In this document: positions 6,963 to 32,096 of the stretch, piece by piece | Layout: each line of letters opens with the position of its first letter | Position numbering within the stretch: the first letter of the stretch is position 1 | Assembly: GCF_013912375.1 (NCBI RefSeq) | Contig: NZ_JACETV010000005.1 | Span: 372,001 to 436,000, forward strand | DNA length: 64,000 nucleotides | Reading direction: 5' to 3' | From: Emticicia sp. BO119 | Lineage (GTDB): Bacteria > Bacteroidota > Bacteroidia > Cytophagales > Spirosomataceae | Program-made: the position numbers and the translations under genes | Notes under the pieces: generated by a model | What the model was told of the DNA's origin: nothing | The model's database searches: none | Seen by the model: the letters and a program-made list of their open reading frames with translations, nothing else

Positions 6963-6998
6963 AGCAGAGGAATTTTTCTTCTGCTTTATTTTTTTTCT
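6963..6998 (+). terminator. Terminator of the small acidic gene
   Basis: A 10-bp stem (AGCAGAGGAA / TTCTTCTGCT, one G-U pair) with a 3-nt loop, followed by a long T run. Confidence 0.8.
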
Positions 6999-7058
6999 TT
7001 ACATTTTCGTAATATCCTCTTAATCAACAATTTACAATCGTTTTAGAAATTTGTAAAT

Positions 7059-16578: not shown

Positions 16579-16634
16579 CAAAAGTACGTTTATAACATTC
16601 TGTGAATGTTAAGGCGTAATTAAGCTATTGTTAA
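16579..16634 (-). promoter_or_regulatory. Pho-box-like repeat array plus -7 box of SusC operon
   Basis: Minus strand. Three consecutive 11-mers, TTAACAATAGC (16634-16624), TTAATTACGCC (16623-16613) and TTAACATTCAC (16612-16602), are followed after 15 nt by TACTTTTG (16586-16579), a match to the Bacteroidota -7 box TAnnTTTG. No TTTG -33 box is seen; the repeats occupy that region, as expected for an activator-dependent promoter. The 11-bp period and TTAACA core resemble PhoB/PhoP binding sites. Confidence 0.65.
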
Positions 16635-17250
16635 GTAAATGCCTGAAACCGCCCTTTTTTTGAGCTTTTTTGTGCATAAACATGAAAAAACAGGCATTTT
16701 TTAAGAATTGAGTAATTTTACTTATGCAAAAGGTAGTACTATGATAACACCACTAAGAAGCAAAGTCATGTTGAGCCAATACTGGTATTAAAAGTAATAT
16801 TTGGCTTGGTTTCCTGAGTCTGAAGAAAAGTTTAAAGGTGTGTTTGGTTATACTCTTTTATTGATACGTTTCAATAAACCTGATAGCCAATGAATGAGCT
16901 ATCCTGATGATTTTCTTTTTTACAGGTATTGATGTTCATAATAATAGGCCACGTGCTTTTAAGTATATCTGATAAAAATTTTAATAACCTAAAAACAAGG
17001 TGTGTTTCTCTCATAAAGTAAAGTGGGTGTTTACCTCTGAAGACACAAATAACAAAAAAGAGTTATATGCTATTAAACGCAAAATTCAATAGCTTTTTAT
17101 AAATCTGCTGTTTGTTTTTACTCTATTTTATTCTTTTCTAATCTTCGGTTATTTCCCTTATTTCGCTTCCTGCAAAACAACAAGTTGCCCGTAACTTCTG
17201 CGTTACAATTCCTTTACCAAATCATAATATTTCAATAGGCTTTTAACTCG
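16635..17250. other. Intergenic region without detected gene
   Basis: About 600 bp of AT-rich sequence between the SusC promoter and the promoter of the protein-glutaminase-like gene. I found no reading frame with family resemblance, no tRNA and no strong terminator. An imperfect dyad near 16775-16810 (AGCCAATACT ... TTTGGCT) is visible. Confidence 0.4.
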
Positions 17251-17258
17251 TAGTTTTG
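17251..17258 (+). promoter_or_regulatory. -7 box of the protein-glutaminase-like gene
   Basis: TAGTTTTG matches TAnnTTTG and lies 21 nt before ATG 17280. It overlaps a TTG at 17256, which rules that codon out as a translation start. Confidence 0.6.
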
Positions 17259-17279
17259 AAACCTAATCAACACTCAAAA

Positions 17280-18080
17280 ATGCTGAATGTATCTGAATCA
17301 AAAGCTTTTATTCAACCCTCAATAGATGGCTTATTTACTGAAATCAAATATTATCTTTATCCATCTTACCGATATCTGCAGGGTAACTGTCACTGCAACG
17401 CTCACCTGAGTTCTCTCTTACTGAAAAAACGAGAGATTCCGCATAAAAAAATCTGGGTTTTTGCTCCTTGCCGCTATTCAGAGTCTTCAAATGAAGTATT
17501 CCGGATACAAGACCCAAACCATATTGCTCCTCGTGGCTACATTCGTTGGGGCTACCATGTAGCCCCTTTGATTCAGATTGGTGCTCAGGAGTTGATTTTC
17601 GATTTCAATTTTTCAGAATACGCTCCTTTAAGTCGTGAAGAATGGCTGGCTCACCTCAATACCCAAGCCTACCGGTGTATTGTTGAAGCACCCGAAAATT
17701 TCTTGTTTTATTCTTCTCCATCACTTAAAAAACCCGGTAAAAGCTTATTTAATGGGGATTTTTATTCGGTTGAAGGTGATTGTTTAGAAAATAAATGGCT
17801 CGAAAAAGGATTAGCAGTCAACGAAACAGCACTGCTTATGCACGAAGAAGTAATCAAAAGAGCGCTTAAGAATCATGCGGGTGCATCACTTATCAATGAC
17901 TACAAATTTCTGATTGGCAGTATCAATAATTTTGAATGTGTTTTCAGAGACAGGAGTTTTAATAAACGAATGACCCCCGAATTTCAGGAAAAGCATTACG
18001 ATTTAATCCATTATTATCGTGGTATTTTTGAGGATAATGTAGAGAAATGGTCTAAGTTAATTAAAGAAATAACAGAATAG
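17280..18080 (+). CDS. Putative protein-glutaminase-like cysteine enzyme
   Basis: 266 residues. The arrangement GNCHCNAHLSSLLL (Cys near residue 37-39), WGYHVAPLIQIG (His near 99) and LIFDFNFSEY (Asp near 113) matches the Cys-His-Asp triad pattern of the protein-glutaminase/deamidase group, relatives of transglutaminase. The Chryseobacterium protein-glutaminase is a secreted member; this protein has no signal peptide and would be cytoplasmic. Such domains deamidate protein glutamines or appear as effectors and toxins. It stands alone with its own promoter and is convergent with a lipoprotein gene. The family assignment is by motif recognition only. Confidence 0.55.
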   Translation: MLNVSESKAFIQPSIDGLFTEIKYYLYPSYRYLQGNCHCNAHLSSLLLKKREIPHKKIWVFAPCRYSESSNEVFRIQDPNHIAPRGYIRWGYHVAPLIQIGAQELIFDFNFSEYAPLSREEWLAHLNTQAYRCIVEAPENFLFYSSPSLKKPGKSLFNGDFYSVEGDCLENKWLEKGLAVNETALLMHEEVIKRALKNHAGASLINDYKFLIGSINNFECVFRDRSFNKRMTPEFQEKHYDLIHYYRGIFEDNVEKWSKLIKEITE

Positions 18081-18082
18081 CA

Positions 18083-18119
18083 CATAAAAAATCATGGCAT
18101 GAATTGCTTCATGCCATGA
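18083..18119 (-). terminator. Terminator of the glycine-zipper lipoprotein gene
   Basis: A perfect 12-bp stem (TCATGGCATGAA / TTCATGCCATGA) with the loop TTGC. On the minus strand it is followed by TTTTTTATG. It may also help to end the convergent plus-strand transcript. Confidence 0.85.
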
Positions 18120-18148
18120 AATCATTAATCTATATAATCGGTTGTGAA

Positions 18149-18664
18149 TTAATAATAAATCTGGGGTTGCGTTTGCTTTTTCTTTTTCTGTTTATCAACA
18201 ATCACCCCTGTTACAGCACCTGCTGCCGCACCCACACCTGCACCAATCAAGGCTCCTTTACCCTTTTTATCTTTAGCAATAGCCACTCCTGTCAGTGCAC
18301 CTACACCAGCTCCGATCAGTGCACCTTTCACAGTATTATTCATTTTCTTTTTAGCTGTGGCTGTAGGCCCATAAGATACTGGCGTATAACCGGTATTTGC
18401 ATAACCACCATCTTTATATATTACGGTCTCTTTGGTTTTGGTTGCTGAACTGGCTTTATTAGCCTCTGCTAATGCTAACTCTTTTTCCTGTATCAGATTC
18501 ATCGAGTCAATAGTTGCTTGTTTCATCCGCTCGATTTCAACTACTCTGTTTACCGAGTCAATTGCAGCTTGTCTGGCTGCCTGTATTTTTTCGTTTGTGT
18601 TTTCTCTGCTATTACACCCCATTGTAGCTGCTACAAGTGAGGCGACAATTAGTACATTTTTCAT
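18149..18664 (-). CDS. Lipoprotein with glycine-zipper domain
   Basis: 171 residues. Lipobox ATMGC (Cys 17), then a helical linker (about 25-75) and two glycine-zipper repeats (KGALIGAGVGALTGVAIA and KGALIGAGVGAAAGAVTGV, about 112-155), ending in a lysine-rich tail. Glycine zippers of this YMGG/YcfJ-like type associate with membranes and occur in outer-membrane lipoproteins. Function unknown. Monocistronic, with a terminator directly downstream. Confidence 0.75.
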   Translation of the reverse strand: MKNVLIVASLVAATMGCNSRENTNEKIQAARQAAIDSVNRVVEIERMKQATIDSMNLIQEKELALAEANKASSATKTKETVIYKDGGYANTGYTPVSYGPTATAKKKMNNTVKGALIGAGVGALTGVAIAKDKKGKGALIGAGVGAAAGAVTGVIVDKQKKKKQTQPQIYY

Positions 18665-19072
18665 AATTGTATCGTGTTATTTGTGGTTTATTGACAATAG
18701 CACGTTTTAAAAGTTTAAAATTTCGTTAATCAGCCAAAATCAATCAGCTATCATACATATAAAAAAATTGAGTCCGCTACTCATGAAAAAACTCAGTCAC
18801 AATTAAAAAATCATAATAAACCACTCATAATCAATCATTTACATGAAAAATAAATTCATTTTTCAACAAGAATTCCTAAAGAGGAAAATGAATTTTTGAG
18901 TCGTTTACGGGGAAAATATTCCCCAAAATCAAAATTCTCTCTTTAAAAATGTCTGAGAAACACTTCTATGAAATAAAAGATTAGGAAGACGTACTTCTTA
19001 AGAATGTAGATATAAAAAAAGTATTTTTTTAAGTGTGAGATTAACAGTTTATGAGGCATTCATACTTAGGGC
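18665..19072. other. Intergenic region with small dyads
   Basis: About 400 bp without a recognisable gene. Visible are a perfect hairpin GGGGAA-AATA-TTCCCC (18909-18924) and several AT-rich inverted segments around 18840-18900. None has a T run that would mark it as a terminator. Confidence 0.4.
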
Positions 19073-19119
19073 TTAACAAAAACATAATATGTTTTATACA
19101 GGGCGTTGATTTATTTTTG
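19073..19119 (+). promoter_or_regulatory. Pho-box-like array plus -7 box of the phosphonatase-like operon
   Basis: 11-mers TTAACAAAAAC (19073), ATAATATGTTT (19084) and TATACAGGGCG (19095) are followed by TATTTTTG at 19112-19119, a TAnnTTTG box located 17 nt before ATG 19137. The array has the 11-bp period of the SusC and TonB-receptor promoters but is offset by 2 nt relative to the -7 box, and the third unit is degenerate. Confidence 0.5.
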
Positions 19120-19136
19120 TCAAAAAACAGCAACTT

Positions 19137-19877
19137 ATGCACCCAATCAGATTAGTTGTTTTCGATATGGCCGGAACTACCGTTCAGGATAAAAAGGAAG
19201 TCGAGACCTGTTTTGCCAAAGCTTGCGAGTATGTAGGTCTAAATGTTTCTGAAGAACGCATTCTGGCCTTACAGGGATACTCAAAAGTAGAGGTTTTCAA
19301 AATGCTTTGGGAAGAAAAAACAGGTAAAGATCACCCTGAATATCATGAAAACGTGATTTATTCTTATGACTATTTCCGTTTGATTCTGGAAGACCATTAC
19401 CGTAAAAACGAGGTTCTGCCTACCGAAGGCTGTTTAGAGATTTTTGATTTTCTGCGTAAGAATAATATTAAGATAGCCTTAACAACAGGTTTCTACAGGA
19501 TTGTTACCAATATTATATTAGAAAAATTAGGCTGGCTTGATGGCCTGGAATACAACTATGTGAATACTTCGGGCAGGTCAGTCATTGATGTTTCTATTGC
19601 CAGTGATGAAGTACCTAAAGGCCGACCAGAACCATATATGATTCAGAAAGCTATGAAACTGATGGGTATTTCTGACCCTTATGAGGTTATTAACATAGGC
19701 GACACCCCATCTGATTTAAAATCGGGTGTAAGGGCAGGGTGCCGGCTCTCTTTAGGTGTTATCAACGGTACACATACCCGCCAGCAATTAACTATTCTAC
19801 GCAATGATGGATTATTAGATTCCTTAAGAGATTTAAAAGACATTATTATTAACTTAGGTGTTCTTAGTGAAGCATAA
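19137..19877 (+). CDS. Phosphonatase-like (PhnX-like) HAD hydrolase
   Basis: 246 residues. HAD motif I is DMAGTT (nucleophile D10), where most HAD enzymes have DxDx(T/V). The cap domain has GYSKVEVF, with K50 placed like the Schiff-base lysine of phosphonoacetaldehyde hydrolase. The usual motif III lysine is replaced by R163 (KGRPEP), and motif IV is INIGDTPSD (D189, D193). These are the traits of the TIGR03351 PhnX-like family. Such proteins typically lack a PhnW transaminase partner and instead neighbour FAD oxidoreductases, exactly as here. Expected reaction: hydrolytic C-P cleavage of phosphonoacetaldehyde or its hydroxy derivative. The stop codon is directly followed by the ATG of the oxidase gene. 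Confidence 0.85.
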   Translation: MHPIRLVVFDMAGTTVQDKKEVETCFAKACEYVGLNVSEERILALQGYSKVEVFKMLWEEKTGKDHPEYHENVIYSYDYFRLILEDHYRKNEVLPTEGCLEIFDFLRKNNIKIALTTGFYRIVTNIILEKLGWLDGLEYNYVNTSGRSVIDVSIASDEVPKGRPEPYMIQKAMKLMGISDPYEVINIGDTPSDLKSGVRAGCRLSLGVINGTHTRQQLTILRNDGLLDSLRDLKDIIINLGVLSEA

Positions 19878-21020
19878 ATGAAAAACTTTGATATTATTAT
19901 AATTGGCAGCGGAATTATGGGGGCTTTTCATGCCTATCACGCTGCTAAAAAAGGTAAGAAAGTATTAATTATTGAGAAAGATAATTTCCCGGTCAGTTCT
20001 ACCGTCCGTAATTTCGGACAGGCGGTTCCTTCAGGTTCAGCCGGAAAATGGTTTGATTTTGGTCACAGAAGCCTTGAAATCTACAAAGGAATCCAGCAGC
20101 AATTTGATATATCGGTCAGAAAAAATGGAACAATTTACTTTGCCTCTGACGAAACCGAATGGCAATTGGCTAATGAATTGTACGATATACATCAAGGTTT
20201 TGGCTATGATTGTATGCTACTCTCAAAGAGGCAATGTATGGATTTATATCCAGAGCTAAAAGAAGATTACGTGCGTGGGGCTATTTACTATCCAAACGAG
20301 GTAAGTGTAGAGCCAAACTTACTGATCTACAAAATACTCCAGTTTTTACAGGAACAATTGCAAGTTACTTATCTGACCAATACCAGCGTCATTGATTGTA
20401 CCGAGGCATCAGGTTTTGTTACACTTACTACAAGCGGTAAAGAACAGTACACTGCCGATAAAGCCATTATTTGTAGTGGATATGTATTTAACCTGCTTTT
20501 TCCGGAAGTATATGCACAAAGCGGCATGATTGTAAGCAAATTGCAGATGCTTCAGACTGTACCAATGACGAATGTCTCAATCAAAGGAAATATCCTTACC
20601 GGACTTTCTATCCGTCGGTATGAGTCTTTTGAGCAATGCCCATCTTTTAAAAGTATCTCTACCCCCGATCATTACTCTGAGCTAAAAAAATGGGGTATCC
20701 ATATCCTGTTCAAACAAGCTATTGATGGTTCTATTATCATAGGTGATTCACACGAGTATGCCCCTGTTGGCCATACTGACGAATTGGGCTTCGATACCAA
20801 AAATTATATCAACGACTTAATGCTGAAAGAAGCCGAACGCATTATGCGTTTTCCTTTAAGGAAGATTGCCCGGTCATGGGCAGGTTTTTATGCTCAACAC
20901 CCAGACGAGATATTCGAGCATGACATCAGTCAGAATATACACATCCGTACTGGCATTGGCGGTAAAGGTATGACCACCAGTGCCGGGTATGCCGAGCATG
21001 TGATTAATGGATTGTTATAA
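19878..21020 (+). CDS. FAD-dependent amine oxidase of phosphonate catabolism (TIGR03364/PbfD-like)
   Basis: 380 residues with an N-terminal FAD-binding motif (IIIIGSGIMGAFHAYHAA, Gly 10/12/15, acidic E33), the DAO-fold substrate domain, and a C-terminal GIGGKGMTTSAGYAE segment that closes the FAD site. It matches the FAD oxidoreductases that accompany PhnX-like hydrolases. As I recall, a characterised relative, PbfD, oxidises N-methylated 2-aminoethylphosphonate to phosphonoacetaldehyde. This fits a two-step route: the oxidase makes the aldehyde and the upstream hydrolase splits it to acetaldehyde and phosphate. There is no gap between the two genes, indicating tight coupling. No signal peptide, so cytoplasmic. 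It ends 3 bp before the convergent DUF5020 gene. Confidence 0.8.
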   Translation: MKNFDIIIIGSGIMGAFHAYHAAKKGKKVLIIEKDNFPVSSTVRNFGQAVPSGSAGKWFDFGHRSLEIYKGIQQQFDISVRKNGTIYFASDETEWQLANELYDIHQGFGYDCMLLSKRQCMDLYPELKEDYVRGAIYYPNEVSVEPNLLIYKILQFLQEQLQVTYLTNTSVIDCTEASGFVTLTTSGKEQYTADKAIICSGYVFNLLFPEVYAQSGMIVSKLQMLQTVPMTNVSIKGNILTGLSIRRYESFEQCPSFKSISTPDHYSELKKWGIHILFKQAIDGSIIIGDSHEYAPVGHTDELGFDTKNYINDLMLKEAERIMRFPLRKIARSWAGFYAQHPDEIFEHDISQNIHIRTGIGGKGMTTSAGYAEHVINGLL

Positions 21021-21023
21021 ATC

Positions 21024-21761
21024 TTAAAACTTATACCTTGTCCCAACTGTGGGATAAGCCTGAATGATATTTCTATCGGTCAACAGATGATAATATAAAC
21101 TCACTCTTGAGCCAACTGCAAAACCTTTTTTAATATTAAACCAGATTTGCGGGTCGCCAAAAAGGGCAAATTTCTTTCCTGTTTGTCCTTTGGTATAGTC
21201 AATGCCCTGATTGCGGTTTTCTGTCCATGCAACGATGCTACCTTCTGCAAAGATTTTATAGTTCAGCCAACCTCTGCCAAAATAAAAAGTAAATTGAGGG
21301 TCATGGCTGCCTTTTGGAAAGGCATTGTAGCGATAAAGTACAGCAGTACTTATCCATGCTCCTTTCCATTGAAAGGGGTAAGCGACTCCCATACCAAAAG
21401 AATTTCTTATATAATACCCAAATGATGGATCTGCGATACCCAGGCCGCCACTATAATTAAGAGATAGATATACTTTAGGTTTCCAGAACCGTAAAGATTG
21501 AGAGATTTGCAGAAATGCCTGATTGGTATTGTTTTTCTCTCCATCCAGAAAGGTTTGTACTTTAAATAAAAACGAGCCTGTACCAACAGTATCTATCTCT
21601 TTAAAGTACTGAAAGCTAATCATAGGAAAATTCCTTTGATTCAGCTTTGGGTCAACCGTGTGCCTGAAATCATAATGAACTTGCAGGTCTTGTGATCTCA
21701 ATAATAATGGTATTAGAAAAATGCTAAGAAAAATCAGGCTTGTTTTCATGCGTGAGTTCAT
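21024..21761 (-). CDS. DUF5020-like outer-membrane beta-barrel protein
   Basis: 245 residues. Signal peptide (from M5, MKTSLIFLSIFLIPLLL, cut near RSQ) and a body of alternating polar and hydrophobic beta strands ending in an aromatic (TVGTRYKF), as expected for a small outer-membrane barrel of the Tsx-like DUF5020 group. It may be a channel for small molecules; Tsx itself passes nucleosides. It lies tail to tail with the phosphonatase-like/FAD-oxidase operon, so it is not cotranscribed with it. The upstream region has only a weak hint of 11-bp repeats. Confidence 0.65.
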   Translation of the reverse strand: MNSRMKTSLIFLSIFLIPLLLRSQDLQVHYDFRHTVDPKLNQRNFPMISFQYFKEIDTVGTGSFLFKVQTFLDGEKNNTNQAFLQISQSLRFWKPKVYLSLNYSGGLGIADPSFGYYIRNSFGMGVAYPFQWKGAWISTAVLYRYNAFPKGSHDPQFTFYFGRGWLNYKIFAEGSIVAWTENRNQGIDYTKGQTGKKFALFGDPQIWFNIKKGFAVGSRVSLYYHLLTDRNIIQAYPTVGTRYKF

Positions 21762-21878
21762 TTGAATCTTTAATTTTGTTTTTTAATGAGTCAAATCTCA
21801 CCCGAAAAAAAAAATTGCTTCGTAATTCAAGCATAAACCTTCCGTAAACGTTAATTACGCATACCATCAATCCTACGT

Positions 21879-23060
21879 ATGAGCACAATGGACGAAAAAG
21901 CTTTTTTCAGATTATTCTATGAAGCCCACGAAAAATGCTTCTGGAAAGATTTAACGACTCCTCTTTCGGAGACGGAAAGCAAGCATTTTTCGAACGAGAT
22001 TTTAGAACGTACAGGCCTGATAGTAGGTTGGAAGAGTATAAAAAATTATTCAATTCATTTACTCAATCCTAATATCAAGAAACAAGAGAATCCAAGTATT
22101 GCAACTTTAGATACACTTGCCCGATATATAAGCAATGCCTCTAAAACTGATGAAGCTACCCGTAAAAAGAATGAGGCGCATTTCAGGTACTGGTATAATT
22201 ACCGCGATACTTTTGCTAAAGCCCACAGCACCAGGAGAAAAAGAAATAAACCCGCATTTGTATTTAAATTTAAGCTCTGGGATATAATTGCCATCATAGT
22301 TTTATTGACAACAATAACAGTTTATATCTACAGGAATACCATTCAATCAACTGACTTTGTTGATAATTTCACCTCGGTGAGTCTGGACTCATTGACACAA
22401 AGAGGCTGGATGCTAAAAAATGAAGATCCAATCTATTGGGAGAAGCGCGATGAGAAAGCAGGACATCTGACACTCTATACATTAGATGGTGATAATTATA
22501 TAGACACCGCTGGCAGAATAGGTATCAAAAATCTCTTATTGAAAGAAATAAAGTCTTCCTGCTTTTCATCAGAAATACACCTTACTAATTTTATACCTAA
22601 GGAAAACTGGCAGCAAGTCGGTATCTTATTAATGGAGGATACCACTTTTAGCAGCAAGAGTGTCCGGCTTTCGCTTTCATTCAATAATTTTTTCGGAGGG
22701 TTAATCAAACCGGGTGAAATTCTGTTGCAAGCCATCAGTGCTACTGATGGCAATCATAGTAAACCCGAAGAAATAGCGCATTCTGTTATTTTTAATATGG
22801 ATTCTTCACAATCGGTTATTGTTACCCAAAACCTGAAGAAGTCTGCCTTACGCATTGAAAAACAAAATCACACCTATCGGTTCTTATATGCTTCAGGAGA
22901 GAATGACCTATTTGCTTTTAAAGAAATCATAAGCAGAGATATCCTGATCGAGCCTAAATATATTGGTATATTTGCTTTGAAGGGTTTTAGGCCAGATACC
23001 CCTGCCATTCCGGCGTATATTGATTTCGTCAGCCTGAAGGCACAGTCTTGCAAGGATTAA
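21879..23060 (+). CDS. Membrane protein with N-terminal HTH-like domain and extracytoplasmic lectin-like domain
   Basis: 393 residues in three parts. Residues about 1-100 resemble the small helical domain that Bacteroidota place at the N-terminus of putative regulators (FSNEILERTGL, SIKNYSIHLL, SIATLDTLARYI), plausibly DNA- or protein-binding. One transmembrane helix is at about 132-152 (LWDIIAIIVLLTTITVYIY). The C-terminal 240 residues look like a DUF1349/concanavalin-type beta sandwich (FVDNFTSVSLDSL, WQQVGILLMEDTT, YIGIFALKGF) on the far side of the membrane. This layout suggests a one-piece transmembrane sensor, but neither ligand nor DNA binding can be shown. It is divergent from the DUF5020 gene and shares its upstream region. 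Confidence 0.55.
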   Translation: MSTMDEKAFFRLFYEAHEKCFWKDLTTPLSETESKHFSNEILERTGLIVGWKSIKNYSIHLLNPNIKKQENPSIATLDTLARYISNASKTDEATRKKNEAHFRYWYNYRDTFAKAHSTRRKRNKPAFVFKFKLWDIIAIIVLLTTITVYIYRNTIQSTDFVDNFTSVSLDSLTQRGWMLKNEDPIYWEKRDEKAGHLTLYTLDGDNYIDTAGRIGIKNLLLKEIKSSCFSSEIHLTNFIPKENWQQVGILLMEDTTFSSKSVRLSLSFNNFFGGLIKPGEILLQAISATDGNHSKPEEIAHSVIFNMDSSQSVIVTQNLKKSALRIEKQNHTYRFLYASGENDLFAFKEIISRDILIEPKYIGIFALKGFRPDTPAIPAYIDFVSLKAQSCKD

Positions 23061-23241
23061 ACCAGATTTTAATTTAATTGCTTCGTATATACCTTTAGTT
23101 TAAATTAGCCTCTGTATTTTTGCGGTATGAGTATGTTTAAAATTATGATTCGACCTGCAAAGGCATCTTTTTTGGTTAGAAAAACAAATTTTAAATATAC
23201 TCTAATAATTGTTTTCCATTCATTAATAATCCATTTACACT

Positions 23242-23724
23242 ATGTCAGCTTGGTATCAAGGAAAAATTCGCTATCAGAAAGTAGACGAGAAAGACAAAAC
23301 CATTAAAATCACAGAAGTTTATTTAGTAGATGCTGTATCTTATACCGACGCAGAGGCCAGAATTTACTCAACTGTTGCTTCTAATACCCCCGACTTCCAT
23401 TTATTCGGGCTTTCACGCATGAAACTACAGGAAGTATATTTTGTAGAAGATGGCGCCGAAACCTGGTTTAAAGTAAAAGTAAACTTTATGAGTTTTGACG
23501 AGAAGTCACAGAAAGAGAAGCGTACCCCTTTTAATATGCTTATCAATGCCGAAAACCCATTAGAAGCTTATCAGCTTATTTCTGAAAGATTAGGCACAGT
23601 AGAAGACTATCAGATTACAGACATTAATATTACGAATATCCTGGAGGTAATCCCTTATGAAGAAGTAGATGAGAAACTGAAACACGGCAATTTCAGGCCA
23701 TTGGCAGAGGTGGGGGTGAATTAA
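23242..23724 (+). CDS. DUF4494 family protein
   Basis: 160 residues, no signal peptide. The sequence begins MSAWYQGKIRYQKVDE and has VYLVDAVSYTDAEARIYSTV, characteristic of the DUF4494 family conserved in Bacteroidota. Soluble alpha/beta protein, function unknown. Followed by an inverted-repeat element. Confidence 0.75.
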   Translation: MSAWYQGKIRYQKVDEKDKTIKITEVYLVDAVSYTDAEARIYSTVASNTPDFHLFGLSRMKLQEVYFVEDGAETWFKVKVNFMSFDEKSQKEKRTPFNMLINAENPLEAYQLISERLGTVEDYQITDINITNILEVIPYEEVDEKLKHGNFRPLAEVGVN

Positions 23725-23730
23725 GAATTA

Positions 23731-23860
23731 TCTGAACTTTGATTTAACTTATTGAATGATTAATATGATATTCTTATAGCCCTGTAAGGTACGCATTCAA
23801 TCTGAGAATACTGCCTGTGGTTTCAGTGAGATCATAACCAAAAGTTAAATCAAAGTTCAT
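23731..23860. repeat. Dispersed inverted-repeat element, copy 3
   Basis: An element of about 130 bp with perfect 18-bp inverted ends (TGAACTTTGATTTAACTT at 23733-23750 and its complement at 23842-23859). It shares end sequence with the copies at 9210 and 9730 but has a longer, different centre. It lies between the convergent DUF4494 and DUF5690 genes. Confidence 0.8.
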
Positions 23861-23864
23861 ATAA

Positions 23865-25163
23865 TTAATCGCTCAATACTGACTTCGGAGACAATTTCCA
23901 CCATATCCTTCCTTTTAAATGCTTATTCGTAAAATAAATCAGTTGTATGATCAATAATATAAGGCAAACGCCTGAAATAATATAGCCAAAGTTTATCAGT
24001 ACATTCAGAAAAGAAATCTGCTTCAGAAAAAACTCACGGTATATCAGAAGCGATACACTACCTAAATACCCGATCGAGTCACAGATATAAACCAGAAAAC
24101 CCACATTACCTTTTACTCGGAAAAGAGCTATCAAACGCTCAAATACAACTGTTTGTATTAATAAATAAGGCAGAAATAACCCAATTCCTAAACTTAACAT
24201 CCACAGTTTTGCCGGGATTATCTGTTGCTGAAAAGCCCAGGTACTACCTCCGCAAGCCGCTACAGCCATGAGCATCATCGCCGTGAAAGTAAGATAGGAA
24301 TAAAAATTATTACGTATAAAAGCTATCAGGGCGATGAGGCTTACTACTATTAAACCAATAGTTGTTTCTATCTCCGAAAAAATAATTTTACTAAAATCAG
24401 GATCAATTTCGCGCCATACTTCCACAGCAAAATTATCTCTGAAATCGCGCACGGTAGCCATTAAAAGATACATACCTACAAAGCAGAACAACCCAAGCCC
24501 AAATTCTTTAATAATCTTTCTTTTATCGTCTTTAGTCATGGCTGTTCTTTGGTTTCTTAAAAGAGTATCTTCGTGATTAGGCGGTGGTATCTGTGCCAGC
24601 ATCCATACAAAAAACAGGAAAAAAGGCAAAAAAATCAGCCCGATAACATACGGCAAATGAAATTCGTTTATCTGATACGTTTCTTGTAGATAAAGATAAA
24701 TAGTCTTTAATACACCCGATGTCATTACCAGATTCAGGCTTAATCCTAAAGATAAAAACTCAGTTAGTTTACGTCCTTCCAGAAAACTGAAAATAACTCC
24801 CCACACCATACCCAAAGGCAGGCCATTCAGAAACAGTAAACCAAAATTATATGGAAAAGGTACAAAGCCAAAGGCTAAAAGAGCAACTTCTGCAAAAGTA
24901 ATCAAACCTATTATCAACAATATCCGGCTTTTAGGTTTTAATTCGGCTATTACTTTTATACCAATAATTTTGGAGAGCATATAGCCAAATACCTGAGAGA
25001 TAATCAAAATGCTCTTGTATCCCATACCCCACAACTCATAATTCTCGTATAACCCTGTTGTAAAAGGCTTGCGGAAAGCATACATACAGAAATACGTACC
25101 AAAAGCCGCAATAATACACCAGACTATTAACAATACTTCAGACTTCGCAAGGATTCTCTTCAC
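23865..25163 (-). CDS. DUF5690 family MFS-like membrane transporter
   Basis: 432 residues with about 12 hydrophobic helices. The first helix contains FGTYFCMYAFRKPFTTGLY, which recalls the start of organophosphate:phosphate antiporters (GlpT/UhpT) in the major facilitator superfamily. Assigned to DUF5690 by recognition. The start is GTG 25163, because an in-frame TAA lies four codons upstream. Its upstream region carries three Pho-box-like 11-mers, linking it to the SusC, TonB-receptor and phosphonatase-like operons. A role in carrying an organophosphate or phosphonate across the inner membrane is an attractive inference but not demonstrated. Confidence 0.7.
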   Translation of the reverse strand: MKRILAKSEVLLIVWCIIAAFGTYFCMYAFRKPFTTGLYENYELWGMGYKSILIISQVFGYMLSKIIGIKVIAELKPKSRILLIIGLITFAEVALLAFGFVPFPYNFGLLFLNGLPLGMVWGVIFSFLEGRKLTEFLSLGLSLNLVMTSGVLKTIYLYLQETYQINEFHLPYVIGLIFLPFFLFFVWMLAQIPPPNHEDTLLRNQRTAMTKDDKRKIIKEFGLGLFCFVGMYLLMATVRDFRDNFAVEVWREIDPDFSKIIFSEIETTIGLIVVSLIALIAFIRNNFYSYLTFTAMMLMAVAACGGSTWAFQQQIIPAKLWMLSLGIGLFLPYLLIQTVVFERLIALFRVKGNVGFLVYICDSIGYLGSVSLLIYREFFLKQISFLNVLINFGYIISGVCLILLIIQLIYFTNKHLKGRIWWKLSPKSVLSD

Positions 25164-25199
25164 AGGTTGCCTTTATTAATTGAACTTGTAAGTTCGGCA

Positions 25200-25232
25200 C
25201 CCCATATAAACTCAGTGTTAAGCCAGTATTAA
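25200..25232 (-). promoter_or_regulatory. Pho-box-like 11-bp repeat array upstream of DUF5690 gene
   Basis: Minus strand: TTAATACTGGC (25232-25222), TTAACACTGAG (25221-25211) and TTTATATGGGG (25210-25200) in direct succession. The first unit differs from a unit of the TonB-receptor array (TTAATATTGGC) by one base. I see no convincing TAnnTTTG box between it and the GTG start. Confidence 0.5.
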
Positions 25233-25395
25233 ATAACAAATCCGAAGCTGTGGAATTAATTCTACAATCTATATACGTATCCTTCCACAGAAAAACTCCC
25301 TTTCTACGTATAAGCATATAAAACCTACTGGCTAAGGTTTTTAGAAAGATACATTAAGTACTAATAAATGCAAATACCTATTAATACATAAAATT

Positions 25396-26517
25396 ATGAA
25401 TCCTACATCTTCTAAATTACCTGTATATCTCCAGTTTTCGCAGATTACAATGGGTCTGCTGGCATTTTTCTATATATTATATATCGGGCAAGGCATTATC
25501 ATTCCATTCCTGTTGGCAACTATTGTAGCTATTCTGCTGAACCCGATAGTTAATTTTCTGATGAGTAAAAATGTCAATAAAATATTAGCTATTGTTCTGG
25601 CTATTCTGACGGCAGCTATTATAATTGGTGGAGTGATGTTTTTTATTGGCTCGCAACTGGTTATGTTCAGTGATTCTGCCCCTCAGTTTAAACAAAAGTT
25701 TGACGAATTTGCTCAAAATGCAATCAACTGGATTTCACAGACCTTCAATCAAAGTAAACCGAAAATTCAGCAAGCCATAGAAAATATCAAATCTCAAGGC
25801 ATGAAAAACGGCACAGCTGTAATTACTACCACCTTGGGTGCCATGAGCAATATATTTACCTTATTTGTTCTGATGCCTGTGTATATTTTCCTGATTCTTT
25901 TTTATAAACCATTGCTACTGGAGTTCGTTGCTTTGCTTTTTCATGGCGACAAGAAAAAAATAGCAGAAGAAGTATTGTTTGAAACCAAAACTCTGATCCA
26001 GAGTTATCTAATAGGTCTACTTATCGAAGCTGTCATTGTTGCAACTCTTATTTCAGCGGGCTTGTTAATTATGGGTATTCAATACGCAATCCTGATGGGG
26101 ATTATCGCTGCTCTATTGAATCTGATTCCTTATATTGGCAATATGATAGCAATGGTTTTTCCTATTACTATGGCATTAACAACCAAAGAACCAAGCTATG
26201 TGATTTGGGTAATTGCCTTGTTTTCAGTGGTGCAGTTTGTAGATAATAATTTGATTGTACCGAATATTGTAGCAAGCAAAGTAAAGGTAAATGCCCTTGT
26301 TTCAATAATAGTTGTACTTATCGGAGGGGCATTATGGGGCATAGCCGGGATGTTCCTCTCTATACCATTAACTGCTATTCTGAAAGTGATTTTTGATAGA
26401 ATAGACGATCTGAAACCATTAGGCTTCCTGATAGGTGATAACCAACCCAGAGTAGGCAAAGTGGCATTTAATTTCAAGGGGTTAGAGAAACGGGCGAAGA
26501 AGAAGGAAGGAAAGTGA
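25396..26517 (+). CDS. AI-2E family transporter (PerM/UPF0118)
   Basis: 373-residue membrane protein with the fold and signature of the AI-2E exporter family: N-terminal helices (LLAFFYILYIGQGIIIPFLL), an amphipathic periplasmic stretch (about residues 95-140), and the C-terminal conserved IPYIGNMIAMVFP, FVDNNLIVPNIVASKVKVN and GIAGMFLSIPLTAILKV. Members have been linked to autoinducer-2 export or Na+/H+ antiport; most are uncharacterised. It has its own terminator. Confidence 0.9.
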   Translation: MNPTSSKLPVYLQFSQITMGLLAFFYILYIGQGIIIPFLLATIVAILLNPIVNFLMSKNVNKILAIVLAILTAAIIIGGVMFFIGSQLVMFSDSAPQFKQKFDEFAQNAINWISQTFNQSKPKIQQAIENIKSQGMKNGTAVITTTLGAMSNIFTLFVLMPVYIFLILFYKPLLLEFVALLFHGDKKKIAEEVLFETKTLIQSYLIGLLIEAVIVATLISAGLLIMGIQYAILMGIIAALLNLIPYIGNMIAMVFPITMALTTKEPSYVIWVIALFSVVQFVDNNLIVPNIVASKVKVNALVSIIVVLIGGALWGIAGMFLSIPLTAILKVIFDRIDDLKPLGFLIGDNQPRVGKVAFNFKGLEKRAKKKEGK

Positions 26518-26561
26518 TTAAATTTAAACATCTGCTTACTACTGAATAATTAGGCAAAAAG

Positions 26562-26592
26562 AAAAAGTCAGAAGCAAGGCTTCTGACTTTTC
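26562..26592 (+). terminator. Terminator after AI-2E family gene
   Basis: A perfect 9-bp stem (GTCAGAAGC / GCTTCTGAC) with the loop AAG, then TTTT. Upstream AAAAA makes it potentially bidirectional. Confidence 0.85.
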
Positions 26593-26673
26593 TGATTTAA
26601 CACCAATATGAATCTGCTGATTCAATTCTCAACCAAAGGGCTGATAGTCTTTTAGTGGTTAAACTAATATCTT

Positions 26674-27228
26674 TTATTGTATGGATTCATGTGTAGGTGC
26701 TACCCATTCGTTCAGTTTTTTATCATAAATCAGGTTGGCATCAGGCCACTCTACATAATGTTTCATAGGTAGATACTTATCTAAGTTTCCGTTTCTGATA
26801 AACTCAGTAAACAAAAATCTGCCTCGTTCTTTCACTAATTTCTCTTCTAAATGCGGTGTATTCACTATTTCTTCAAAATCTGTCGGCCTCAGGTTTTTGC
26901 CTAATTTATATCGCCCAACCACTCCTCTTCTATATGGCAAATTGCCTACGGGACGAATCACAAAAAAATAATGCGTACTATCGGGTGCGATGTAATAATT
27001 CTGAATACTGAATTTTGGTAGAACAGCAAGGTAAAACTTCCGGAACTGTGGTTGAAATTTTGTTTCGTTGCTTGATTGCGGAGCTTTACGATAAATATAA
27101 GTTATAATATTTGTCAGTAAAGTATCTTGTTGTGTTTTATCAAAATAGGTATTCACATTATACTTGTCTTTCGTACACGATAGAGCAATCAGACAAATAC
27201 TTATACTTGCTAAAAAAAACTTCTTCAT
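26674..27228 (-). CDS. Lipoprotein of unknown function
   Basis: 184 residues from ATG 27228. Signal peptide with lipobox IALSC (MKKFFLASISICLIALSC). The upstream extension to 27315 crosses a hairpin and adds a non-signal sequence, so it is rejected. The body has no domain I recognise; it holds FVIRPVGNLPYRRGVVGRY and a basic/aromatic C-terminal part. It lies downstream of the beta-helix lipoprotein on the same strand, separated by a hairpin. Confidence 0.65.
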   Translation of the reverse strand: MKKFFLASISICLIALSCTKDKYNVNTYFDKTQQDTLLTNIITYIYRKAPQSSNETKFQPQFRKFYLAVLPKFSIQNYYIAPDSTHYFFVIRPVGNLPYRRGVVGRYKLGKNLRPTDFEEIVNTPHLEEKLVKERGRFLFTEFIRNGNLDKYLPMKHYVEWPDANLIYDKKLNEWVAPTHESIQ

Positions 27229-27274
27229 ATTGGTGTTGAGAAAAAACAAAACTATCATAAAACTCCACTTCTTA

Positions 27275-27306
27275 AATTCTTCTCCCCCAGTTGGAGGAGA
27301 AGAATT
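27275..27306 (-). terminator. Hairpin after the beta-helix lipoprotein gene
   Basis: Inverted repeat AATTCTTCTCC (27275-27285) / GGAGAAGAATT (27296-27306) with a 10-nt loop, lying between two minus-strand lipoprotein genes. No long T run follows, so termination strength is uncertain. Confidence 0.5.
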
Positions 27307-27359
27307 TCGACTCAAATCCTGCTATCGGGAAGAGTCAAGGAAGAGGTTTATGAGAAAAA

Positions 27360-29120
27360 TTATTTAATATACACTACTGAACTCGGGTTGAATTCTGTCC
27401 AGGTTGCAGTCCAGTCTGTGTCTTTAAATGCCCCTACATAATCGGTAGCGGTAAAGAAGGCTGGCAAAGTAACAGCCGAAGTACCTTTCGTTAAAGCATC
27501 TGCAGCAGTACCAGTGATTGTAAACGTTGGGCGGCCAGTACCAAATACTGAGGTATTGATACCAGAGGTTGTCCATGAAGCCAGAGTTTTATTACCGGCA
27601 AGACCTGCAAACCAGGCTGATGGTTTTTGTGTACCAATCATCAAATCAGCCGGAGGAGTTGCCGTATTAACATCACGTACGGGGAATCCTTGTGGCTGAG
27701 TAGCAGCACCTTGTCCCCAACCGTTGTTACCCCAACCAGTTACACCAGCCAAAATCACGTTGTTCAATACCAATTGACCTGCAACAGCATTTGCCGCTGT
27801 AGTACTGCCATCAATATAAATACCATTCGGATAACCCGTTACAAATGTATTATATACCTTGATTTTGTTGTTACGACGTAAGTGCATACCATTCTGGAAC
27901 AAAGTACTGATGAATGTTTCCTGGCTTTGTTTAGCGCCAATCAATGAAACGTTGGCAAGAGTCGGTGAAGTGAAAGGTTCAGCAGAAGTTCCCTGGCCAT
28001 CGTTATCAACTTCAAAACCGTTTGAACCTGACTGATCGGCATTTGTAGCCCCACGAAGACCAACTGCAAACTGAATGAAACCTCTATAACCATTATCCAT
28101 ATCAAAGTCATCATCAAGACCTCTGTACGCAACCAGGTATTTAGCATTTACAGTACCACCAAACCACTCATAAGAATCATCGCCACCATAAGATGCCTGT
28201 AAGTTTTCTAATACTGTACCGCTACCTACTGAACCAAAAGTGAAAGAGTTAATTTCCTGATTAGGATTGATAGGTACACCAGCATATTCAACACGTACAT
28301 ATTTCAAGCTACCAGAATTATCAGCGTCTTCAGTACCACCATGCCAGCCTTTGTAGCTACCCTCCAGTTGGGCAGAACCACCAGGCAGGTTATTTTGGGC
28401 TTTACCACAAATTACAAGACCGCCCCAGTCACCTGCTTCACGCTCGCCTACACCACGTTCTGATGTAAACACGATTGGTTCAGCGGCTGTACCGTTAGCG
28501 ATAATTTTACTACCGCGCTGAATAATCAAAGTTCCCTTAGTAGCACGCTCACCAATGATAACCGTACCAGGCTCAATGGTTAAAGTACCTGTAGCCACAC
28601 CGGCAGCCGTTGTAGCAGTGGTATCGCCACCTACACGTACAAAACCTGAAATTTTATAGATTTTGTTTTTAGTCCAGGTAATATTTCCTGTTAACAAGCC
28701 CTTAACTGTTACTATTTCCTTAGGAGGAACGGCTGTTGTTTTAACAACAAAAGTAGCAGGTGTTGATTGCTGACCTTTGCTATCAGTTGCAATGATAGTA
28801 AAGTTAACTGAAGTACCAGCAGCCAGATTTTCAATAGTATATTCTTTTGTATAGTTATCTGATGTTTCAGTACCAGCATAGGTTTTTGTATCAAACGCAG
28901 CTCCGTTTTTCAAAACTGTCAAGGTTTTTAACCCAGCCGGAGCACTAATAGAAGCCGTAACATTAACTTTAGCACCCGGCACACCTGACGCTTCTGTACC
29001 TGCCGATACACTTGGTGCTGGGAACACTTCTTCATCTTCTTTACAGGCATTTAGTACAAACACAGCCGAAACTGCCATTGTACAAGCTGCAAATAATCGA
29101 GAGAATTTAGAAAATTGCAT
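27360..29120 (-). CDS. Beta-helix surface lipoprotein paired with a TonB receptor
   Basis: 586 residues. Lipobox LNAC (Cys about 26). Residues about 35-130 look Ig-like (PSVSAGTEASGVPGAKVNVT through TPATFVVKTT). Then comes a long beta-helix-type region (about 135-500; TLTIEPGTVIIGERATKG, GSLKYVRVEYAG, DSYEWFGGTVNAKYLVAYRG). The gene is 79 bp downstream of the TonB receptor on the same strand, in the place a SusD would take, but shows no SusD fold. It may be the receptor's ligand-capture partner (inference). Since the receptor promoter carries Pho-box-like repeats, it is likely coregulated with phosphorus genes. Confidence 0.75.
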   Translation of the reverse strand: MQFSKFSRLFAACTMAVSAVFVLNACKEDEEVFPAPSVSAGTEASGVPGAKVNVTASISAPAGLKTLTVLKNGAAFDTKTYAGTETSDNYTKEYTIENLAAGTSVNFTIIATDSKGQQSTPATFVVKTTAVPPKEIVTVKGLLTGNITWTKNKIYKISGFVRVGGDTTATTAAGVATGTLTIEPGTVIIGERATKGTLIIQRGSKIIANGTAAEPIVFTSERGVGEREAGDWGGLVICGKAQNNLPGGSAQLEGSYKGWHGGTEDADNSGSLKYVRVEYAGVPINPNQEINSFTFGSVGSGTVLENLQASYGGDDSYEWFGGTVNAKYLVAYRGLDDDFDMDNGYRGFIQFAVGLRGATNADQSGSNGFEVDNDGQGTSAEPFTSPTLANVSLIGAKQSQETFISTLFQNGMHLRRNNKIKVYNTFVTGYPNGIYIDGSTTAANAVAGQLVLNNVILAGVTGWGNNGWGQGAATQPQGFPVRDVNTATPPADLMIGTQKPSAWFAGLAGNKTLASWTTSGINTSVFGTGRPTFTITGTAADALTKGTSAVTLPAFFTATDYVGAFKDTDWTATWTEFNPSSVVYIK

Positions 29121-29199
29121 AATTTTTGGGGTTTATAATGTAAACTCAGTGAATGTTTAATTGCTTAATTAATAATATTGTTGATTAGTCTAATCCGAA

Positions 29200-32010
29200 T
29201 TATTTGCCACTTAAAGTGTAGCTCACACCTATCGAGAATAATCTGCCCGGTTTGTACTGTTGTATAATCTCATCTTTCTTACGGTCAAATTTGCCATCCT
29301 GGTTACCATCTTGTAAAATCAGAGCCGCCTGATTGAAAATATCATTCACTCCACCCTTAATTACAAATCTACTACCTACACCTTTTGAGAAAGTAAGATC
29401 CAGTACATTTCTTGGCATTTCATATAAGTCAGGATAACCTACAAAACCTACTGCAAAGATTCTTTTACCAATTACATTGTAAAGAACATTCACCTGAAAG
29501 TCGCTATCCTGATCGTTGTAGTTGATACCTGTATTCACAATGTATGGTGATTGCCCCTGTAACGGACGATTGTCTGATTGGCCTACCGAGCCATCTCTTA
29601 GCTTCACTTTACTTACCAATATGGTAGTATTAAACAATACGCTTACTCTTTCCAGGAATTTTGATGAAGAAATACTTGCCAGACCTTTCTTGATTTCTAA
29701 TTCTATACCTGTACTTCTGGCACTTTTTGCATTGTTGTAGATAAAAGTTTTGGCTCCTAATGAACCGCTTCCTGCCTCAACTTCAATTTCAATGGGATTT
29801 CTGAAATCTTTATGAAAAGCTGCAAAACTGATAACCTCAGATGGTGTCGGATAAAACTCCCAACGGGCATCAAAATTATTTACAGTTGAGATTTTCAGAC
29901 CAGTATATCCTTCATATACTACGTTGAAATCGAAATCATAAAAAGAGAAAGGTGCTAATTCTCTGAACTCCGGGCGGTTGATTGTTTGTCCGTAGGCGGC
30001 TCTTACCAACATTTTTTCAGAGAAATTATAAGAAAGATTAGCTGATGGAAGCACACTCATCACCGGATTTTTCACAGATACTTTTGCGCCACCGATAAAG
30101 GCACTTTGCAAGCTTTGTGTATTATCTTCGACACGAACTCCACCAATGATATTCAGTTTCTTTGTAAGAGGAATATTAGCGTTGGCGTAATAAGCTAATA
30201 GTTTATTACCTGCTGTATAAGAATCATTAGGGTTAGTCTGTTCGTCAATTCTGATCCCGTTGGTATTATTAATATTATTGAAGATAACATTGATTGGCGC
30301 AGTGAAAAGCTCCCCATTGAAGTTTGACCCGCGTACATATCCTAAGTTTCTGCCATCAAATGTACGGTCTTTTTTCTCATAGAATACCCCGGCTTTCAGT
30401 TCCATATCTCTATCTTTCTCTTTAGAAAGCGTAATTTTCTGAGTCAGGTTAACTGCTCCTGTGTATCCATTCTCTTTCATTTTTGAGAACCATCTTCCTA
30501 AAAAGAAAGCCTGCGCAGTACCTACCGGAATATATACTGATTCTGTACCACTGGTTTGATCAACATCAGAACGATAACGTCTGTAATCTGGTTGGTCACG
30601 ATATGAATTATTATAGCCAATCACCCAGTCGATGGTGGTTTTACCTTTGGCTACCGTATGCTTACCAGTTAGTTGTCCGGTATAAATACCACGATATACC
30701 TGATTAAATGAGTGGTTGTCAGGATTATAGTTGGCTTCAATAGCCCGGCCAGTACGACGGGTATAATTTGAATTGCTTAACTGGTTGAATAAGTTTTTAA
30801 ATTCAATTGAGTTATTTTCGTTCAAACGAAATGCCCAGTTATGCATCACTCCAACGCGGATATTACGGCTGTATTGCTGGTCGTTGAAATTATAAATCGG
30901 CGACTGTGTATTATTGATATTTGCGTTGAAATCATTACGATTAATCACAAAATTGGTACGGGTGTCAGAGTAGTTTACAGCTGTTACATTACCAATTTTT
31001 ACATTGCCGGCATTAAATCTGTAATTACCTGTTATCCCAATTCTCTGGTCAGGAGTCGCTGTTGAATTATTAGCTATCCATTCGTTTTTTAATGATTTAC
31101 CGGCAGTTTCTAATGCAGCAGGGTTATTTGAAATCTGACTGATATTTACCGGAAAATACTTAGGTAAATCGTAGTATCCGTTATTAAAGCCCGTCCAGTA
31201 GTTTTTGCCTTGATTTGGCTGATAGAAATCTCCGAAAGTAGTATTACTACGGTAAGAAGTACTGTAATCAATTACCAAAGAGTTTCTATCCGGGATATTC
31301 TTCGTGAAGATTTTTACCAACCCTCCTGCAAATTCACCTGGTAATTCAGCCGATGGGCTTTTATAAATTAACATTCTGTCAATTTGTGAGCTTGGAATAA
31401 TATCAAATGAAAACGATTTTACGTCAGTTTCCATACTGGGTGTAAAAGCATTATGCAACATTACATTGTTATAGCGTTGGTTCAAACCTCTGATATTGAT
31501 AAACCTGTCACCTACTATCGTAATTCCTGGTACACGTTTTACTACCTGTGCGGCATCGCGGTCAAGCGTTTTGGCAATCTGTTGTGCCGAAATACCATTT
31601 ACCACCATTTGTGCTGCTTTTATTTCTGAAATCACCGATACTTCAGTATTTGTTAATCGGCTGGCGGTAACTTTTACTTCTTGTAAAACTGCTCCTTCTT
31701 CTTCAAGGGCCGTATTAATTTCTGTTACATTATCAGCTATAACTGAAACATCAGCAATTACTTTATCTTTATAAGAAACATAAGTAATCATTACTTTTAC
31801 TTTACCTGCCGGAACTTTGCCGATAGAAAAGAAACCGTTAATATCGGTTACTGTACCTAAAGCACTCCCCTCAATTTTAACAGTAGCACCAATTAAATCT
31901 TCATTGGTTTTGGCATCTTTGATTGTTCCGCGAATGGTACCCGTCTGGGCAAAAGTGATAATTGAAGCAAATAGCAAAAAGAGCGTTGTAGAAATTTTTA
32001 TCTTGTTCAT
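29200..32010 (-). CDS. TonB-dependent receptor with carboxypeptidase-like domain
   Basis: 936 residues from ATG 32010. Signal peptide (MNKIKISTTLFLLFASIITF, cut near AQ), carboxypeptidase-D-like domain (TGTIRGTIKDAKTNEDLIGA, about 22-110), plug domain (VNGISAQQIAKTLDRD, VVKRVPGITIVGDRFINIRG) and a C-terminal barrel ending ISVGVSYTLSGK. It lacks the SusC-specific signature and has no SusD partner; its partner is the beta-helix lipoprotein downstream. The longer start at 32043 lies within the -7 box and is rejected. The promoter carries four 11-bp repeats, the clearest array in the window, so phosphate-limited expression is likely. Confidence 0.9.
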   Translation of the reverse strand: MNKIKISTTLFLLFASIITFAQTGTIRGTIKDAKTNEDLIGATVKIEGSALGTVTDINGFFSIGKVPAGKVKVMITYVSYKDKVIADVSVIADNVTEINTALEEEGAVLQEVKVTASRLTNTEVSVISEIKAAQMVVNGISAQQIAKTLDRDAAQVVKRVPGITIVGDRFINIRGLNQRYNNVMLHNAFTPSMETDVKSFSFDIIPSSQIDRMLIYKSPSAELPGEFAGGLVKIFTKNIPDRNSLVIDYSTSYRSNTTFGDFYQPNQGKNYWTGFNNGYYDLPKYFPVNISQISNNPAALETAGKSLKNEWIANNSTATPDQRIGITGNYRFNAGNVKIGNVTAVNYSDTRTNFVINRNDFNANINNTQSPIYNFNDQQYSRNIRVGVMHNWAFRLNENNSIEFKNLFNQLSNSNYTRRTGRAIEANYNPDNHSFNQVYRGIYTGQLTGKHTVAKGKTTIDWVIGYNNSYRDQPDYRRYRSDVDQTSGTESVYIPVGTAQAFFLGRWFSKMKENGYTGAVNLTQKITLSKEKDRDMELKAGVFYEKKDRTFDGRNLGYVRGSNFNGELFTAPINVIFNNINNTNGIRIDEQTNPNDSYTAGNKLLAYYANANIPLTKKLNIIGGVRVEDNTQSLQSAFIGGAKVSVKNPVMSVLPSANLSYNFSEKMLVRAAYGQTINRPEFRELAPFSFYDFDFNVVYEGYTGLKISTVNNFDARWEFYPTPSEVISFAAFHKDFRNPIEIEVEAGSGSLGAKTFIYNNAKSARSTGIELEIKKGLASISSSKFLERVSVLFNTTILVSKVKLRDGSVGQSDNRPLQGQSPYIVNTGINYNDQDSDFQVNVLYNVIGKRIFAVGFVGYPDLYEMPRNVLDLTFSKGVGSRFVIKGGVNDIFNQAALILQDGNQDGKFDRKKDEIIQQYKPGRLFSIGVSYTLSGK

Positions 32011-32040
32011 ATTGGTTTTCCGTGTATAATTTTCACGGTG

Positions 32041-32096
32041 CAAAACTACTGCGCCAATATTAAGTGAATGTTAAGTCAATATTATGCGTTAATTAT
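32041..32096 (-). promoter_or_regulatory. Four-unit Pho-box-like array plus -7 box of TonB receptor
   Basis: Minus strand, in direct succession: ATAATTAACGC (32096-32086), ATAATATTGAC (32085-32075), TTAACATTCAC (32074-32064), TTAATATTGGC (32063-32053), then GCAG and TAGTTTTG (32048-32041). The unit TTAACATTCAC is identical in sequence and in distance to the -7 box (15 nt) with the unit in the SusC promoter. Confidence 0.7.

Follow-up and report, generated by a model that had tools for sequence, protein, structure and literature searches.

In Escherichia coli, the PHO box consists of two 11-nt repeats with the core CTGTCAT (PMC4415409). Among the Bacteroidota, PhoB of Bacteroides fragilis binds the pstC promoter directly in electrophoretic mobility shift assays (PMC3547664), and Flavobacterium johnsoniae responds to phosphate depletion by inducing a TonB receptor and lipoprotein located in its phoBR cluster, together with SusCD, PlcP and a glycosyltransferase (PMC8115612). 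In the passages of the literature searched, no Pho-box sequence for Bacteroidota was found: the word "consensus" is absent from the main text of PMC3547664, whose passages on B. fragilis PhoB binding give no site, and the terms "Pho box" and "motif" are absent from the main text of PMC8115612. Here we describe arrays of 11-bp repeats before an island of putative organic-phosphorus genes in a 64,000-nt window of Emticicia sp. BO119 (C24:372001–436000 of the 6.57-Mb genome G000; "the window" below is this whole stretch). These arrays are very probably Pho boxes of a PhoB-type regulator, most likely the one encoded at C5:14493–15191, which would switch on the island at low phosphate; we infer binding, activation, phosphate response and substrates.

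The TTAACA core of the repeat units resembles the consensus of Bacillus subtilis PhoP. As in the PHO regulons of E. coli and B. subtilis, the units form head-to-tail 11-nt direct repeats before phosphate genes, and a site also precedes the gene of the putative OmpR/PhoB-family regulator itself. Unlike in those systems, the arrays stand 15–16 nt above a Bacteroidota -7 box (TAnnTTTG) with no -33 element seen by eye, and TTAACA differs from the E. coli core (PMC4415409). The arrays in the window are as follows:

6640–6695, plus strand: array of a 63-amino-acid open reading frame (ORF); TTTGCAGTTTC TTAATATTACC GCAATAGTAAG, 15 nt, GACCTTTG
6998–7053, plus strand: array of the PlcP-like gene; TTTACATTTTC GTAATATCCTC TTAATCAACAA, 15 nt, GAAATTTG, the box lying 5 nt from the ATG
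16579–16634, minus strand: array (putative Pho boxes) before the SusC operon, with three 11-bp units (16602–16634), 15 nt, -7 box TACTTTTG (16579–16586)
19073–19119, plus strand: array of the phnX-like/pbfD-like (phosphonatase) operon; two units (19073–19094), box TATTTTTG (19112–19119)
25200–25232, minus strand: DUF5690 array; three units, TTAATACTGGC TTAACACTGAG TTTATATGGGG
32041–32096, minus strand: array before the TonB receptor/lipoprotein operon, with three good units (32053–32085), -7 box TAGTTTTG (32041–32048)

On the minus strand, the SusC array reads TTAACAATAGC TTAATTACGCC TTAACATTCAC, 15 nt, TACTTTTG, and the TonB array (32041–32085) reads ATAATATTGAC TTAACATTCAC TTAATATTGGC GCAG TAGTTTTG. 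The first-pass annotation had reported TTAACATTCAC as identical at these two promoters and as lying 15 nt from TAnnTTTG in each, and the sequence bears this out exactly. Of the four promoter arrays that it proposed, those of SusC and TonB hold, apart from a claimed fourth TonB unit (ATAATTAACGC, 32086–32096) that is weak; the other two, before the phosphonatase/FAD-oxidase operon and before DUF5690, are either weak or not in register. It had also overlooked the promoter of the PlcP-like/glycosyltransferase pair which, with that of the 63-amino-acid ORF, adds two further array promoters inside the window.

The geometry of the SusC promoter is rare by chance. Written as a 20-position pattern (three TTAA units at 11-bp spacing, N15, TAnnTTTG), it has an expectation of 0.0004 exact matches per genome under independent, identically distributed bases; four stretches (L243–L246) served for base frequencies only. 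At a minimum of 18 of 20 positions, the Emticicia genome holds six matches (two exact, one with one mismatch and three with two), and four simulated order-3 Markov genomes hold none. Half of these six comprise the window's SusC and TonB promoters and a SusC promoter on another contig (C22:38525–38580), the last being the only other exact geometry match in the genome; the other half are found at, or close to, two-component or efflux loci of the metal type. With up to three mismatches allowed, the genome gives 18 matches versus 11 for the reversed pattern. A first architecture scan, with 10 matches versus 19 for its control, was dropped as evidence; its three TTAACATT matches are the two window sites and C22.

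The four Emticicia arrays are conserved far above the remaining upstream sequence. Across four Emticicia genomes (the window, G001, G002 and G008), invariant columns make up 27/33 of the SusC array versus a fraction of 0.36 elsewhere in the upstream, 29/33 of the TonB array versus 0.19, 22/22 of the phosphonatase array versus 0.38, and 25/33 of the DUF5690 array versus 0.46. The nearest named relatives of the window's PhnZ-like protein are also Emticicia, three of them at 83–88% identity. The SusC array is kept at 20, 20 and 18 of the 20 pattern positions in L046, L047 and L048, which are the same records as G001, G008 and G002 rather than additional genomes, and is degenerate in L050, L053 and L054. 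An array of the same layout as that of TonB precedes, in G021 (L103), TonB and lipoprotein genes 63% and 61% identical to the window pair. The almost identical C22 array stands over a second SusC/SusD pair (L036:2026–7241), whose substrate is perhaps another phosphorus compound; similar arrays occur before 92–94% identical genes in G001 and G008 and, in G005, before a SusC/SusD pair 51% and 46% identical to that of C22.

Array-type sites also precede inorganic-phosphate transporter genes. The window's four arrays were the sole source of a matrix that was applied to the DNA before PF01384 (PHO4) transporter genes in related genomes. Of 28 relatives, 24 had a match, which gave 25 loci; two of these lacked a readable start and were dropped, leaving 23. 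At 11-bp spacing, 17/23 scored above the 95th percentile set by 135 control upstreams (p 1e-9); with altered units, the threshold was passed by 4/23 at 10 bp, 2/23 at 12 bp and 2/23 when reversed. Controls of the first matrix test (threshold 12.9) included SusC orthologues carrying the array, and the spacing-controlled test (threshold 11.5) used other loci. Because such closely connected genomes do not count as independent samples, the search was extended to 291 genomes across the order, using the pattern TTAACAATNNCTTAACATT-N18-TAnnTTTG with one mismatch allowed. This returned 17 sites in 17 genomes of 10 genera, whereas the reversed pattern returned no site. Thirteen of the 17 precede PHO4 genes (6 genera), and one each precedes a gene for a PstS-family protein, a YhhN protein, a TonB receptor and an ECF sigma factor. 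The core of this pattern was partly taken from PHO4 upstreams, so that its PHO4 share is not blind, as the matrix test is; the pattern has no match in the Emticicia genome itself. The PstS-family site, in a genome from another family of the order (L172 of G134), suggests that the box may serve Pst where Pst is present.

A looser scan of 58 relatives gave 278 matches versus 207 for the reversed pattern, which means that most single matches are uninformative; the case is built instead on the scan of the order and on the tests by gene family. Among 15 loose-scan matches hand-picked for annotation, one lies in coding sequence (L099), three (L097, L108 and L110) have no evident phosphate or importer gene first, and the others precede PHO4 genes (2), the gene of a PlcP-like enzyme, that of a Porin_O_P protein and TonB/SusC-type operons.

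The matrix also points to the gene of a candidate PhoB. The regulator at C5:14493–15191 is the genome's best scorer for Bacteroides PhoB (213.2 bits, cut-off 270), and its gene adjoins that of a PnpS/PhoR-like histidine kinase. Its upstream carries TTAACATTGAC TTAACACACCT with a score of 18.1, and arrays scoring 18.1–22.4, with TAnnTTTG 16 nt away by eye, occur in 11/11 genomes of the genus searched. Over equal 310-nt upstreams in the Emticicia genome, five other OmpR-family regulator genes (those of the window's CopR-like pair, two RprY-like pairs and two other CopR-like pairs) score -0.2 to 7.0, compared with 18.1, and were rejected as the regulator. Array sites before both phosphate transporter genes in relatives and a likely phosphate-response regulator gene point to one phosphate-starvation switch. 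The Pho regulon that the first-pass annotation had proposed is thereby supported, in that a matrix of the kind it called for picks out PHO4 (Pit) upstreams in relatives and the candidate phoB upstream in the genus; the pst and phoU targets that it predicted were not found. PhoU (PF01895) has no match in the Emticicia genome, whereas 13/14 control genomes match. One PstS-family protein (PF12849) is above its cut-off (C1:1090867–1091598; L065), encoded after ExbB-, ExbD- and TonB-like genes (named by eye) and not within a Pst operon, and a second falls just below (26.2 of 27 bits); PstA, PstB and PstC were not searched. In having no PhoU match, and no PstS-family protein above the cut-off outside the ExbBD-TonB-like cluster, the genome differs from E. 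coli. With the PhoRB system of B. fragilis it shares a Bacteroidota PhoB that would act at phosphate promoters; the target there is pst (PMC3547664), and these searches turned up no counterpart. PitR (PF01865) has no match in the three ORFs around and including the Emticicia PHO4 gene; no genome-wide search was made.

We suggest that phosphorylated PhoB would bind the head-to-tail units when phosphate is low, with the promoter-proximal units covering the -33 position above the -7 element. To judge from its position, the unit whose end is 15 nt upstream of the -7 box would occupy the -33 place, so PhoB probably contacts RNA polymerase there and may recruit it to the array. The genes switched on would comprise an import arm (SusCD, and the TonB receptor with its lipoprotein), a C–P cleavage arm (the PhnZ-type oxygenase and the PhnX-like/FAD-oxidase pair), the phosphodiesterase-like enzyme and the DUF5690 protein, and an arm for phospholipid replacement (the PlcP-like enzyme and its glycosyltransferase). 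Activation at low phosphate is likely because of the sites before transporter genes and the induction of comparable genes in F. johnsoniae. The genes concerned are these:

7059–7904, plus strand: PlcP-like metallophosphoesterase (PF00149, 2.6e-13; 67% identical to L100:532–1356 of G022)
7901–9091, plus strand: glycosyltransferase adjoining the PlcP-like gene (PF13528, 9.9e-29)
9850–10917, minus strand: phosphodiesterase/phosphatase-like enzyme (PF01663, 2.8e-8)
10995–11561, minus strand: PhnZ/TmpB-type HD-domain phosphonate oxygenase (TIGR03276, 218.9 bits, cut-off 214.6)
11648–13240, minus strand: SusD-like lipoprotein (Pfam SusD-like_2, 1.9e-67)
13297–16500, minus strand: SusC-like outer-membrane transporter (Pfam Plug, CarbopepD_reg_2)
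19137–19877, plus strand: PhnX-like HAD hydrolase (TIGR03351, 170.8 bits, below the cut-off of 218.9)
19878–21020, plus strand: FAD oxidase of TIGR03364, the PbfD group (360.1 bits, cut-off 285.1)
23865–25163, minus strand: DUF5690 family protein, a putative inner-membrane transporter (PF18943, 1.9e-141)
27360–29120, minus strand: lipoprotein of the TonB operon (61% identical to the L103 lipoprotein)
29200–32043, minus strand: TonB-dependent receptor (PF00593, 1.1e-27)

The genes for SusC, SusD, the PhnZ/TmpB-type oxygenase and the phosphodiesterase-like enzyme follow one another on the same strand, placing a SusCD pair in one cluster with phosphatase or phosphonate enzymes, as in phosphate utilisation systems (PUS). 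Against solved structures, the oxygenase matches PhnZ (4mlm, 8.5e-42) and TmpB (6npa, 4.5e-33); the phosphodiesterase-like enzyme has no meaningful match among them. The PhnX-like hydrolase aligns with phosphonoacetaldehyde hydrolase (2iof, 1.7e-11), keeping the aspartate motif and pairing lysine with lysine, a residue that we take to be catalytic. The TonB-operon lipoprotein has no Pfam, NCBIfam or PDB match. The name PlcP for the product of 7059–7904 was given by no tool and is our assumption from the neighbouring gene.

Elsewhere, PlcP and a glycosyltransferase together bring about the replacement of phospholipids when phosphorus is scarce, and predicted Pho boxes occur at plcP clusters of marine bacteria (PMC4796936). 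The island resembles the PUS/PHO regulon of F. johnsoniae in combining SusCD with phosphatases or phosphonate enzymes, in its PlcP-like and glycosyltransferase pair, and in a TonB receptor paired with a lipoprotein, which is pectin-lyase-like in F. johnsoniae (PMC8115612). It differs from that regulon in that the candidate phoBR genes are on a different contig from the island, and in holding PhnZ-type and phnX–pbfD genes together. PbfD enzymes of the TIGR03364 family, to which the characterised PbfD1 is annotated, convert aminoethylphosphonate and its N-methyl form to phosphonoacetaldehyde (PMC10590968). As in the phnX–pbfD route (PMC10590968), the PhnX-like hydrolase gene adjoins that of a TIGR03364 oxidase in one operon, and no transaminase gene lies directly beside this pair in the window; no search for phnW was made elsewhere in the genome. 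Unlike in that route, the PhnX-like protein, so called by homology, is below both TIGR cut-offs.

Several results weigh against the PhoB-type reading. The candidate regulator's best NCBIfam model is indeed PhoB (TIGR02154) at 223.6 bits, below the cut-off of 296.2, and the kinase's best is PnpS (283.8 bits, cut-off 400), followed by PhoR, both below curated cut-offs. Beyond the genus, candidate phoB upstreams pass in 3/14 readable loci, and the phoB set (28 loci, three dropped without a readable start) is not spacing-specific: a spacing of 11 bp lets 14 of the 25 upstreams pass, one of 10 bp 11, one of 12 bp 6, and reversed units 2. Even when the spacing is wrong or the units are reversed, PHO4 upstreams keep a weak difference from the controls (p 0.001–0.013 in 4/5 such tests), so part of their signal is base composition, and the control upstreams were drawn without restriction to intergenic DNA. 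The inorganic-phosphate transporter found in the Emticicia genome is a PHO4 protein, and the site of its gene (TTTACAATTTC TTAACATAGTT) is degenerate, scoring 11.8 (below 12.9, above 11.5), but conserved. Among relatives, the upstreams of PlcP-like genes show no clear enrichment, with 3 of the 18 readable (12 of the 30 loci being unreadable) reaching 12.9. A bare two-unit scan of the Emticicia genome showed no excess (95 matches, 112 for the control) and was dropped as evidence, the full geometry or conservation being needed to see the signal; in the window, a simple pair pattern is mildly above shuffles (24 versus a mean of 17.3, with 10/100 shuffles reaching 24). Lastly, the phosphonatase box TATTTTTG lies 17 nt past the second unit, 2 nt out of register, and the DUF5690 promoter has no TAnnTTTG at the expected distance from its array.

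These last irregularities leave room for a narrower regulon, in which the DUF5690 and phosphonatase arrays are chance or other conserved promoter elements and the true targets are only the SusC, TonB and C22 SusCD operons. The DUF5690 upstream is fairly conserved throughout (the 0.46 given above), and the high AT content of this genome makes matches to two units frequent. We nevertheless consider this unlikely, given the invariant columns of both arrays. At the phosphonatase promoter only two units (TTAACAAAAAC ATAATATGTTT, plus strand) are convincing, but a pattern scan finds the phosphonatase promoters of three more distant loci (L050, L053 and L054) to carry arrays in the 15-nt register, with 16/20 positions matched. 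The DUF5690 dimer is the second-highest in the window (23.5), though its units are part of the matrix.

The overlooked PlcP-like array matches 15/20 positions of the SusC-type pattern, and its register is kept before 83–93% identical genes in six loci of Emticicia or Cytophagaceae (L046, L047, L048, L052, L054 and L055). The 63-amino-acid ORF (6717–6908) behind the other additional array is acidic and without a Pfam match; counterparts 71–83% identical occur in L046, L047 and L048, and none was found in L050 or L052–L055, the array in front being conserved.

A second alternative, which we regard as improbable, is that the arrays are sites of another OmpR/PhoB-family regulator, such as the CopR-like system at 2064–4132 of the window, and that control is unrelated to phosphate. 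The SusC promoter and the CopR-like pair are 12 kb apart, and three other same-geometry arrays are at or near metal-type two-component or efflux loci, so geometry alone does not name the regulator. However, the upstream of the window's CopR-like regulator scores 2.9 versus 18.1 for the candidate phoB (in a matrix run with unequal upstream lengths, equalised in the 310-nt rerun), the order-wide sites mostly precede PHO4 transporters, and the units at the metal loci are, by eye, mostly TTAAA or TTAAT. Two of the metal-type arrays, with one and three mismatches, are separated by about 275 bp and precede the genes of a CopR-like two-component system (L037:6275–6330 and 6550–6605; C25:53274 and 53549), and similar ones occur before an RND efflux locus (L038) and near another CopR-like pair (L039). 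Other OmpR-family systems of this genome may share the promoter design.

That the repeats are ordinary AT-rich promoter sequence devoid of regulatory meaning is scarcely credible: the two-unit scan is not above its control and the wrong-spacing and reversed controls retain a weak difference, but the simulated genomes, the column conservation and the absence of reversed order-wide matches all argue otherwise.

If the arrays are Pho boxes, we lean towards a broader design for the Cytophagales, in which a TTAACAAT-TTAACATT Pho box is locked 15–16 nt from the -7 element and PhoB replaces the -33 contact. In Emticicia, a PhoBR system without PhoU, and perhaps without Pst, would sense phosphate otherwise (perhaps through Pit flux or the kinase itself) and would govern a single island in which two phosphonate routes stand together with import across the outer membrane and the replacement of membrane lipids. 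The arrays provide a searchable sequence signature for a phosphate-starvation regulon in the Cytophagales, through which DUF5690, the TonB-operon lipoprotein, the C22 SusCD pair and the 63-amino-acid ORF can be proposed as phosphorus-scavenging genes, and the finding points to a PhoBR system in a genome with no PhoU match.

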